Shown one piece after another: positions 45,984-49,709 of a stretch of 64,000 nt of DNA. Below the pieces are notes generated by a model. The model was not told the origin of the DNA, searched no databases, and saw only the letters and a list, made by a program, of their open reading frames with translations. The translations under genes were made by a program, and so were the position numbers. Position 1 is the stretch's first letter. Every line of letters begins with the position of its first letter. This stretch comes from Spirochaetales bacterium (GTDB lineage: Bacteria; Spirochaetota; Spirochaetia; Sphaerochaetales; Sphaerochaetaceae), in assembly GCA_028722305.1 (NCBI GenBank), contig JAQYHB010000045.1:62001-126000 (forward strand), given 5' to 3'.

Positions 45984-46650
45984 CGAGATCCATATCGCAT
46001 ATACTCCGGAACGAGGTGCGGAACAGTTCGCCAAAACCTACCCGGTCTTTCATGCGAAATATCCCGACGTCACCTTTGTCATCCACGAGGAACGGGTCAA
46101 GGAGATGGAGAAGCACCTGGCCGACGGCACGGTCGATATCGCCCACATCTCCATCCGGCAACCCCAACCGGCCTTCGATTACGAGTGGATCGACAGCGAA
46201 CAGATGGTGCTTGCCGTTCCACGAGGCAACCCGTTGGCAAGGAAAGCCGACGAGGCGAAAGGACCGGGGCTGCCACTGCTCGACCCCGCTTGGCTCGCGG
46301 GAGAGAAAATCGTCTTGAATTCCCAAGAGACGCTGATGCGGGACATGGTGGACGATCTCTACCGGCAGGCAGGGCTCAAGCCGGACGTGCTCTTCGAGAC
46401 ATCATCCAGCAAGACCATCATCAGCGTGGTGGAAAACGGTATCGCCGTCGGCTTCGTACCCCAGTCCTATGTGGTTCCCTCACGGAAGATGGTGTTCTTT
46501 ACCGCCGGCCACCGTTACGAATGGATGCTGACGGTCGCCCACCGAAGGGACTACTATCTCTCCAACGCCGAGCGGGAGTTTATCCGGACCTTCAAGGAAA
46601 TCTACCAGGCCTCCCGCCAGGACCGTCAGTCGGCGACGAGGGTAAGGTAG
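45980..46650 (+). pseudogene. LysR-type regulator lacking its DNA-binding domain
   Basis: About 220 residues starting at RGEIHIAYTPERGAEQFAKT match the LysR substrate-binding domain (VFHAKYPDVTFVIHEERVKE; AVPRGNPLAR; ETSSSKTIISVVENGIAVGFVPQS). The N-terminal winged-helix part and linker are absent; an open frame continues to 45571 but it is antisense to the neighbouring genes and not LysR-like. The end overlaps the convergent secreted-protein gene by 25 bases. The remnant could not bind DNA as a normal LysR protein. Confidence 0.78.
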
Positions 46651-47888
46651 ATCGAGGAACTGTACCAGCCTGCGGTCAGGCTGCTGGCGTCGTCAATGTC
46701 CTCGAAGCTGAAGTCAAGGTCACCCTCCAGCCGGTACAGGGCGAAGTATCCGTTGTTGGATTTTTCCGTCACCGAGCAGGGGACGACAATGTAGTCGGCA
46801 TTGTCGCCCTTGAACACATGGGTCACCTGCGTCGAGGCATAGTCGGCATAGCTGGTGAAGGTGGTCGACGATGCTGCGGCATTCCCCTTGTAGGTTATGA
46901 TGAAGGGAATCGAATTATAGGCGTTCTCGTAGGTCGTCCCCACCTTCCTGAGCTTGAAGACGCTTTCCGCGTTGGTGACCGTGTTGGGCTGGGCCGAGAT
47001 ATAGAGCTTGTAGGGGGTCAGGCTCGTGGCTGCCGGCTTGCTCCGGTAGACCATGTAGTTGGTCGCCTGGATATCGGCGATCTTCACGACGTTGCTCGCC
47101 GTACTTGCGGTGAGGGAAGCGATATCGAGCTGCTTTGCCGCGTCGGTGGCGTTCACAAAGAAGCTGAAATTGGAGCTCTTGTCGGGAGTCTTGCCCCCGA
47201 CGTATCCCCACAGGGTCATGTCGAAGCTCTGTGTCTGGGGGGAGACGGAGGGATCCGTCGTGGTCATGGTGATGTGCAGGTCGCTCCGGTAATCATTGTA
47301 CTCGGCCAGGTCCTCGTCCGTCCCTTCAAGGATGATGATGAAGTCCGCCCAGCGGTCATTCGCCTTGTCAGAGGCACTTCCGTCGCTCGGCTGCAGGACG
47401 AACGAATAGGACTGGCCAGGGTTGGTGGTCACGTAGAACGACGAGGAGGAATTGCCGTACTTGGTGGCATCGCTGGTCATGGTGGTGTCGTTCTTGTTTC
47501 CTCCGCCCCCGCTGATGTTGCGGCGGCCGTTGACGGCGATCTTGTACTTCTTGAACTTGCCGTGGTCGGTCTGGGAGGTGAACTGGAAGTCGCCCGAAAA
47601 GGTGACCGTCGTGGTTCCTGAGACTCCGAGGGCACCGAAGACACCAATCATCGTGTCGTCATAATACCCCATCGAGTCATTGTATGAGGTCCTTCCGTTG
47701 TTCGGGGTCATGGAGCCGACCCATTGCAAGTTGGTGGAGAAGTCGTGGTACTTGTACTCGGGGTCGGTCAGGTCGATACTGCTTGCCGTCTGGGACATGA
47801 ACTCGACCCAGAACTCGTGTTCCGCGAAAAGGGGCGCGAGCAGGAGCCCGGAGAACAGCAACAACAGGGTGGAACATTTGCGGATCAT
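46626..47888 (-). CDS. Secreted beta-rich protein of unknown function, operon member 4
   Basis: 420 residues, largest of four overlapping genes. The signal peptide (MIRKCSTLLLLFSGLLLAPLFA) is followed by a Ser/Thr/Asn-rich sequence with many predicted short beta strands; two similar-sized halves may exist, the second around TPDKSSNFSFFVNATDAA. The tail, SSLTAGWYSSSIYLTLVAD, has the same G-x-Y-x3-I-x-L-T pattern as the other three products. GGAGG at six bases supports 47888; an ATG at 47903 overlaps the previous stop. No family recognised; a surface or periplasmic fibre or adhesin subunit is possible. Confidence 0.75.
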   Translation of the reverse strand: MIRKCSTLLLLFSGLLLAPLFAEHEFWVEFMSQTASSIDLTDPEYKYHDFSTNLQWVGSMTPNNGRTSYNDSMGYYDDTMIGVFGALGVSGTTTVTFSGDFQFTSQTDHGKFKKYKIAVNGRRNISGGGGNKNDTTMTSDATKYGNSSSSFYVTTNPGQSYSFVLQPSDGSASDKANDRWADFIIILEGTDEDLAEYNDYRSDLHITMTTTDPSVSPQTQSFDMTLWGYVGGKTPDKSSNFSFFVNATDAAKQLDIASLTASTASNVVKIADIQATNYMVYRSKPAATSLTPYKLYISAQPNTVTNAESVFKLRKVGTTYENAYNSIPFIITYKGNAAASSTTFTSYADYASTQVTHVFKGDNADYIVVPCSVTEKSNNGYFALYRLEGDLDFSFEDIDDASSLTAGWYSSSIYLTLVAD

Positions 47889-47899
47889 GCGATTCCTCC

Positions 47900-48463
47900 T
47901 CATTCGCCGTTGGTCAGGGTGAACAGGATCGAACCGGTATAATAGCCCGATCCGTACGACGACGCGTCTTTCTGGTACAGGCGGAAATAAATCGGGTTGT
48001 CCGTGTAGGTCATGATCCGATCTGTGCTGCCCAGCGTGTAGACGCCCCCGCTACCGAGATTCCAATCAGCGTCGGAGCCGGTATTGTTGATATAGGCGAT
48101 CTTGGTCGCAGAAGGCGACTCGGCATTTGTCGGATATTGGATGCCGATCTGGTAGGAGATGGCGGACTGGGAGTCCGAACTCTTCACCATCGGCTTGGTG
48201 GTCACCTTGACGTTGACCAGGGCGTTGGTCATCAGCGTCCAGGTACCAATCTGCAGGCCGGCAATTTGGTCCTTCGGCGCAACGTTGCTGTCCGTCAGGT
48301 CGAAGGAGGACGCTGCCTCGGTCCGGCCGATGATCAGTGTCGTCTTCGGGTCAAGAAAGCCATACAGGTCGACACTCTCGTTTCCGTAGACATTGACGGC
48401 ACCCAGGCTCCTGGAGGCCAGGAGCACCATCATCAATACACTTGTGCAAGAAAGGTACTTCAT
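47900..48463 (-). CDS. Secreted beta-rich protein of unknown function, operon member 3
   Basis: 187 residues with signal peptide MKYLSCTSVLMMVLLASRSLGA. The mature part is Asp/Ser/Thr-rich; GTWTLMTNALVNVKVTTKP and NPIYFRLYQKDA look like beta strands. The end, SGYYTGSILFTLTNGE, carries the shared C-terminal pattern; IYFRL resembles IPIYFNRE in member 1. Both ends overlap neighbours in ATGA form. No domain recognised. Confidence 0.72.
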   Translation of the reverse strand: MKYLSCTSVLMMVLLASRSLGAVNVYGNESVDLYGFLDPKTTLIIGRTEAASSFDLTDSNVAPKDQIAGLQIGTWTLMTNALVNVKVTTKPMVKSSDSQSAISYQIGIQYPTNAESPSATKIAYINNTGSDADWNLGSGGVYTLGSTDRIMTYTDNPIYFRLYQKDASSYGSGYYTGSILFTLTNGE

Positions 48464-49173
48464 TTGGTCGCCACACTTAGGATGATCGTTCCGTGGTAGT
48501 TCTGAGCCGGCAGGCCGGTGGTCTGCATGTCGATATCGACCGAGCCTCCCCACTTCCATGTGCAGGAGTCACCGCCTCCTTTCAGCGTGTTGACGGTATA
48601 GTCGAGAGCCCAGACCTTGGTATCCTCCAACGAGGAGAAATCCAGGCTGCCGGATTTGGTCTCTGTGACTGTCTCGCTGACAATCTTTTTCTTGCCAGAC
48701 AAGAAGACGGTGGTGTTGCCATGCACCGAGCGGGAGAGCGTCGCCCCTTTCCGGGTATAGACGGTATCCTCCCGGGTAAACGCAACGGAACCAGGCACGT
48801 AGGTTTCGGCGTCCTCTCCCACCAGCGGGGAGATGGAAAGACTGAAATGCAGATGCAGGGAGGAGTTTTCGGAATTGCCGAGGGTACCTGTAGCTGACCA
48901 GGTCAGCAACGTACCCTTCACCTCGTCCGTGGTACCCAGGTTGGCGATGGAGTAGGAACTCCCGTTGCTTGCCGCCACGCTTCCCTGCCAATAGGCGCCG
49001 AAACTGTCAAGCGCGCTGATCTTCTCGGTGATGTAGCCGGTGAAAGAGAGCGTGTCCGATCCTCGCTTGTTCCTTCCTTCAAGCTCGTAGCTTTGGGTGG
49101 AGACAATGGGGTCGGCACACAAGGGGAATGCGACGGCAATCAGTGCGAGAACGACAGGAAGAAGACGTTTCAT
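48460..49173 (-). CDS. Secreted beta-rich protein of unknown function, operon member 2
   Basis: 237 residues. Signal peptide MKRLLPVVLALIAVAFPLCA precedes a mature protein without Cys clusters until the single CTWKWGG near the end. The C-terminus (AQNYHGTIILSVATK) fits the shared pattern G/N-x-Y-x2-x-I-x-L. ATGA overlaps join it to members 1 and 3. No domain recognised. Confidence 0.72.
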   Translation of the reverse strand: MKRLLPVVLALIAVAFPLCADPIVSTQSYELEGRNKRGSDTLSFTGYITEKISALDSFGAYWQGSVAASNGSSYSIANLGTTDEVKGTLLTWSATGTLGNSENSSLHLHFSLSISPLVGEDAETYVPGSVAFTREDTVYTRKGATLSRSVHGNTTVFLSGKKKIVSETVTETKSGSLDFSSLEDTKVWALDYTVNTLKGGGDSCTWKWGGSVDIDMQTTGLPAQNYHGTIILSVATK

Positions 49174-49709
49174 GTGGCACTCTCCGTAATCTGGACCGTC
49201 GAGACGTAGCTGCCTGCGCGGGCTGCCGAGCTATCTCCTACCCGCACATAGAAGGTACAGACTTGGCTCCCAGACTGCTCCCGGTTGAAATAAATGGGAA
49301 TCGCGTCGCTCTCCTGCCCCATAGGCAACATCGTCGTTGCGTCACCGCGGGAAGTCTTGTAGCCGATGATCAGGGTGTAGTCGATCGAATCGACCACAGT
49401 CCCGTTCTCGCTATCGTACTGTTCGAGCGGGGTATAGGAGAAACGGAAGTCATGCGTCTTGGTCTCGTTCATGAAGGCGACCATATGGGCGACTTCCTGG
49501 GTAGAATTCTTCAGCTCGATTGCCGCTTCGGTGAGCACGGAGGCACCGGAGACATCCATGATTCTCCACTCGGACAGTCCTTCCTGCTGGTAGTTCCAGC
49601 CAAGCGAGATGGCGGTGTTGTCCAATGCCCCTAGTGCCGGCAAAGGCAAGGCAAGCATGATGAGCAATCCCAGACATCGAGCAGAAAACAGGCGCAAACG
49701 TATGCTCAT
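49170..49709 (-). CDS. Secreted beta-rich protein of unknown function, operon member 1
   Basis: 179 residues. A signal peptide (MSIRLRLFSARCLGLLIMLA, cleavage near PALG-A) leads to a beta-rich domain with IPIYFNREQSGSQVCTFYVR and the end AGSYVSTVQITESAT, resembling the final strand of spore-coat-U/pilin-like domains. GGAG with five-base spacing supports the ATG at 49709. First gene of the operon. Confidence 0.75.
   Translation of the reverse strand: MSIRLRLFSARCLGLLIMLALPLPALGALDNTAISLGWNYQQEGLSEWRIMDVSGASVLTEAAIELKNSTQEVAHMVAFMNETKTHDFRFSYTPLEQYDSENGTVVDSIDYTLIIGYKTSRGDATTMLPMGQESDAIPIYFNREQSGSQVCTFYVRVGDSSAARAGSYVSTVQITESAT

Follow-up and report, generated by a model that had tools for sequence, protein, structure and literature searches.

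The question raised by this locus is what four secreted proteins of no recognised family, encoded together in a spirochaete, might build. The locus lies in a 64,000-nucleotide stretch of a Spirochaetales bacterium of the Sphaerochaetaceae (GenBank assembly GCA_028722305.1, contig JAQYHB010000045.1, positions 62,001 to 126,000; hereafter the window), where an operon of four secreted-protein genes, A-B-C-D, occupies 46626-49709 of the minus strand and encodes products of 179, 237, 187 and 420 residues. An earlier note on this DNA had proposed that these are the subunits of an undescribed assembly held together by strand exchange. Our analysis indicates that the operon very probably encodes the subunits of a chaperone-usher (CU) pilus of divergent, non-classical type, namely A to C together with a two-domain tip, D, and that these are assembled in trans. 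This reading is based on the computed conservation of the cassette and its gene order, the homology of a chaperone and an usher, their linkage to cassette genes in relatives, co-occurrence across genomes, and folds predicted for C and D that resemble those of pilins.

The four open reading frames (ORFs) and their lengths are correct as the earlier note had listed them: A at 49170..49709, B at 48460..49173, C at 47900..48463 and D at 46626..47888, all on the minus strand. The claim that all four genes are joined by ATGA overlaps holds for two of the three junctions, A/B and B/C. At the C/D junction an ATGA is present at 47903, but an AGGAGG immediately precedes the ATG at 47888, and for this reason a start at 47888 (420 aa, after a short gap) is likelier than one at 47903, which would give a 425-aa form; the ribosome-binding site and the alternative in-frame ATG together span 47889..47903, 5' of D. 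In line with the earlier description, all four proteins have signal-peptide-like N-termini without a lipobox, as judged by eye, and none has a Pfam or NCBIfam match above threshold. The spore coat U domain (SCPU, PF05229) matched none of A-D, and D gave a weak TraK_N match under that family's cut-off. For C, phmmer against the PDB returned no match and a scan of viral contigs no relative.

As the earlier note had suggested, we looked for the same operon in relatives, and the A-B-C-D order, with similar gene sizes, was recovered in several genera of Sphaerochaetaceae. Relatives of D occur in few genomes of the family and relatives of C in more. When compared with profiles for each gene position, built without same-genus sequences, every window protein best matched its own position (A, 38 bits, hhalign probability 96.5; B, 31 bits, hhalign probability 95.9; C, 66 bits; D, 164 bits), well above the other positions, and A may accordingly be regarded as a candidate single-domain pilin-like subunit and B as a further pilin-like candidate. 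Cassettes are also found in a row, two in genome G009 and three in G010, and the source genome holds three complete ones, in the window and on contigs C52 and C13. At one locus (L031:7719-17149) three A-B-C-D cassettes adjoin, two forward and one inverted, an arrangement that could permit recombination between tip subunits.

With three cassettes in one genome, the window copy might be decayed or silent and the pilus built from one of the other two. In the sister genome G083 the B gene does seem to be split over two frames (L030:7874-9146), which in this draft could be a sequencing error or a broken gene. However, the A-D ORFs of the window are intact, their overlaps are present, a good ribosome-binding site precedes D, and D is 92% identical to its counterpart in G083, so we consider a decayed window cassette extremely improbable.

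The common last strand noticed earlier in all four proteins is real and beyond chance. It reads AGSYVSTVQIT in A (49185..49217), QNYHGTIILSV in B (48472..48504), SGYYTGSILFTLT in C (47912..47950) and AGWYSSSIYLTLV in D (46635..46673), all on the minus strand. Of 160 family members, 87% have an aromatic residue 11-13 positions before the C-terminus, compared with 33% of 410 other ORFs drawn from the same loci, and the full motif, a glycine and an aromatic residue near -14 and -12, is present in 84% of the subunits against 7% of the other ORFs. A C-terminal glycine and tyrosine near these positions resemble those of classical pilins. The IYF strand that the earlier note had described in the first and third proteins is likewise present, as PIYFNR and PIYFRL.

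A pilus of the CU type would require a chaperone and an usher. As previously observed, neither gene is adjacent to the operon in the window; both are found elsewhere in the genome, as one orphan pair on contig C6 (usher G000:C6:1334-4381) that adjoins V-type ATP synthase genes. In the window genus the cassettes are unlinked to this pair, and because it is the only pair found in the source genome, we infer that it would serve the window cassette in trans. In genome G047, cassette genes come after a PapD-like chaperone and a divergent usher. Searches with these two proteins recovered the usher from 104 of 139 Sphaerochaetaceae genomes and the chaperone from 105, and the source genome has both. 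In a scan of public genomes, 80 named loci, all of them in Spirochaetota, were compared: at 28 of these, chaperone, usher, B, C and D form one operon; at another 28 the pair lies upstream of V-type ATPase genes, and most of the others stop at a contig edge. The orphan pair is thus repeatedly found directly upstream of a V-type ATP synthase operon (at L109:1124-12428 as well as at the latter 28 named loci). In the linked operon of G047 (L043:169-4354), D is followed by seven more small secreted proteins, which suggests that minor or alternative subunits are numerous in that genus.

The identity of the chaperone is indicated by its family match. The source-genome chaperone reaches 25.1 bits (E 1.8e-5) against PapD_N (PF00345; cut-off 23), those of relatives also exceed the cut-off (best, 3.7e-8), and so does the chaperone of the rumen MAG RUG023. 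The chaperone family aligns with EcpB in hhalign (probability 84), the sole chaperone with a profile match in a search of solved structures. The equivalent of EcpB Pro60 is kept in 81 of 81 chaperones, and that of EcpB/CsuC Arg89 in 79 of 81, the other two having one histidine and one gap. The proline is superfamily-wide, and the arginine is a mark of archaic and alternative, that is non-classical, chaperones (PMC4654587). Judged by these residues, the spirochaete chaperones are on the non-classical side. If this arginine binds the C-terminal carboxylate, as in CsuC, it would account for the conserved C-terminus of the subunits.

The usher is divergent. The best family member matches PF00577 with E 1.8e-8, and the family aligns over nearly its full length with the FimD/HtrE/SfmD profile (hhalign probability 92.5, E 4.8e-7), compared with at most 0.3 for the controls BamA, FhuA and LptD. 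Alignment with EcpC alone gave a probability of 5.5, and a TcfC-domain match (E 0.019) was found in just 1 of 19 ushers. Against the PDB, the full-usher profile retrieved only coiled and low-complexity proteins, via its linker, and the profile of the usher core matched no usher; because of this outcome, profile-profile comparison with controls was adopted for the ushers. Across 345 sampled genomes of the phylum, the usher family is nearly restricted to Sphaerochaetaceae.

We then considered the predicted folds of C and D. The AlphaFold2 model of mature C, computed with 28 relatives, is all beta (pLDDT 74.6, pTM 0.73), except that residues 1-14 are of low confidence and predicted to be disordered; this stretch is a candidate donor strand. 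Foldseek alone returned no match below 0.001 for C, while with VIA-align 38 of 50 among the matches listed are CU pilins, the best listed being CfaE (Z 7.6, rmsd 2.6 over 109 residues). For D (pLDDT 72.7, pTM 0.55), Foldseek returned five matches below 0.001, all of them CFA/I pilus entries, with CfaE-CfaB the best (E 6e-7). The N-terminal half of D matches the CfaE pilin domain (Z 9.5) and CsuA/B (Z 8.3), and its C-terminal half the pilin domains of PapE, PapG and FimH (Z about 6). The models therefore point to a pilin-like Ig fold, with C ranking among CU pilins and D consisting of two pilin-like domains. The fold match of C is weak alone and persuasive together with the genetics. In D, a strand is modelled at residues 3-7 of the mature N-terminus, where C has its flexible stretch, which fits a tip subunit without a donor strand and is only suggestive. 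The earlier note had held that unrelated folds, or a clear hit to a known family, would speak against its proposal; neither outcome was seen, and both models rank CU pilins first or nearly so.

Cassette and machine also tend to occur together. Strong D matches were found in 58 of the 104 genomes with the usher and in 3 of the 35 without it (Fisher 4e-7), and within single genera the contrast is sharper, with 13/13 against 0/3 in genus g2 and 31/36 against 0/12 in genus g11, although none of these counts corrects for shared ancestry or for gaps in drafts. This limit weighs against a CU pilus, as do several other results. The window proteins have no sequence match to any known pilin family in Pfam or NCBIfam, and single E. 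coli pilins, FimA and FimH among them, gave no signal when C and D were compared with them by hhalign. The source-genome usher alone has no Pfam Usher match, its identity being drawn from the family alignment, its position and the profile comparison. D is present and the usher was not found in G118, G127 and G129, and in G118 (a draft, 92% complete) the cassette is a complete A-B-C-D (L219:811-3792). Conversely, the pair occurs in Sphaerochaeta and other genera in which no cassette was recognised; in the Sphaerochaeta-like genomes G091, G100 and G113 the pair is present and a relative of C or D was not detected. Finally, the models are of middling confidence, and Z values below 8 for C and about 6 for the C-terminal half of D might, taken alone, mean a mere common arrangement of strands.

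Two alternatives draw on these points. Like TasA or CanA, an archaeal cannula protein, the proteins could be strand-exchanging fibre subunits that are assembled without this pair, which would serve other substrates. The structures of CanA and TasA rank high for the C model, and the unlinked cassettes of the window genus, the usher not found in G118 and the Sphaerochaeta pairs would all suit such a system, whereas B, C and D stand directly after the usher at the 28 named loci with the joint operon, D and usher co-occur within genera, and a two-domain D suits a CU tip. On balance we regard this alternative as improbable. Or the four could be soluble secreted or periplasmic beta-sandwich proteins that have merely a common Ig-like fold, their last strand being a generic beta-sandwich ending; the Z of C and the unrelated beta-sandwich proteins among the structural matches would allow this. 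It seems distinctly improbable, however, given a four-gene order kept in several genera, tandem copies, linkage to chaperone and usher, and a motif whose distance from the C-terminus is fixed.

If the operon does encode a CU pilus, its assembly can be outlined as follows. Each of A-D would be exported by Sec, after which the PapD-like periplasmic chaperone, encoded on another contig, would grip the C-terminal strand of the subunit and anchor its C-terminal carboxylate by the conserved arginine. The outer-membrane usher encoded beside the chaperone would receive the subunits, link them by donor-strand exchange and secrete the fibre. D would enter first and lie at the tip, with A, B and C behind it, in a presumed surface fibre with a possible role in adhesion. 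In the source genome, three A-B-C-D cassettes or more would depend on the one orphan pair. The notion of strand-exchanging subunits is in this way strengthened by the linkage in relatives, the pair in the genome and the folds of C and D, strand exchange itself being inferred; what does not stand is a wholly new assembly principle, in place of which we propose a divergent CU pilus.

The usher may add a feature of its own. Hydropathy predicts an N-terminal transmembrane helix in 45/45 ushers, and two or more helices in 31; in most, the helix or helices are followed by a long acidic or proline-rich linker and then by the usher domains, the linker boundary not being located automatically in some ushers, that of the source genome included. 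A lipoprotein N-terminus was rejected, since many members lack a post-helix cysteine, and where there is one it often has a charged residue at -2. An ordinary signal peptide fails for the 31 of 45 members with two or more helices; in single-helix ushers, including that of the source genome, the N-terminal helix may be one. From these predictions, the usher seems to have an anchor in the inner membrane. Outgroup spirochaete ushers, such as that of Rectinema, are about 820 aa long with an apparently ordinary signal peptide, and stand beside an SCPU subunit, whose match in Rectinema is above the cut-off. Because the outgroup ushers look ordinary in this way and the present usher family is almost confined to Sphaerochaetaceae, the tether would be a derived feature of this clade, provided that the helix is uncleaved. 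The outgroup loci (L203:2949-7188, also L199, L201 and L204), from Rectinema subterraneum and relatives, encode a compact archaic-type system made up of a chaperone, an 820-aa usher and a 310-aa SCPU subunit. A bolder proposal, for and against which we see about equal weight, is that of a new spirochaete CU clade, in which an uncleaved N-terminal domain and a periplasm-spanning linker tether the usher to the inner membrane and one orphan machine draws on scattered cassettes that carry subunit genes only, building from them several alternative pili of four subunits each.

How, then, does this system compare with known ones? Type V pili of Bacteroidota also have strand-exchanged subunits encoded in a multi-subunit operon; their subunits are lipoproteins, unlike the window proteins, in which we saw no lipobox. 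Classical pili (type 1, Fim) are alike in the near full-length alignment of the usher family with their usher profile, and differ in that the spirochaete chaperones carry the non-classical arginine and the subunits have no FimA/FimH sequence match. Alternative (alpha) pili, represented by CFA/I (CfaA-B-C-E) and the E. coli common pilus (EcpA-E), provide the best structural matches of D and C and the chaperone profile match, to EcpB, whereas the usher profile aligns poorly with EcpC and the gene organisation differs. In the archaic (sigma) pili, Acinetobacter Csu (CsuA/B, A, B, C, D, E) is the model, with four subunits including a two-domain tip, one chaperone and one usher (PMC4654587, PMC9452303). 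The window system resembles it in its four subunits with a two-domain tip, in a PapD-like chaperone with the proline and arginine of non-classical chaperones (PMC4654587), and in that Rectinema, the nearest spirochaete outgroup, encodes a related chaperone and usher next to an SCPU subunit. It differs in that the window subunits lack SCPU similarity, the chaperone and usher are unlinked to the window cassette, the spirochaete usher has a predicted N-terminal membrane anchor and linker, and there are several cassettes per pair. The system bears the testable superfamily marks of the CU pathway, and it may belong with either the archaic or the alternative systems.

Published surveys record archaic pili from Proteobacteria, Cyanobacteria and Deinococcus-Thermus (PMC4654587); our literature search, which did not extend to paywalled papers, found no report of a CU pathway in spirochaetes. 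On the reading proposed here, a large number of secreted proteins that lack annotation acquire a probable function. A membrane-anchored usher, if true, would give a well-studied machine a new architecture and would raise the question of the role of inner-membrane energy or positioning in pilus secretion. How Sphaerochaetaceae, which live in the rumen and gut, attach themselves is undescribed as far as the literature search showed; several cassettes on one machine would provide them with alternative adhesins.

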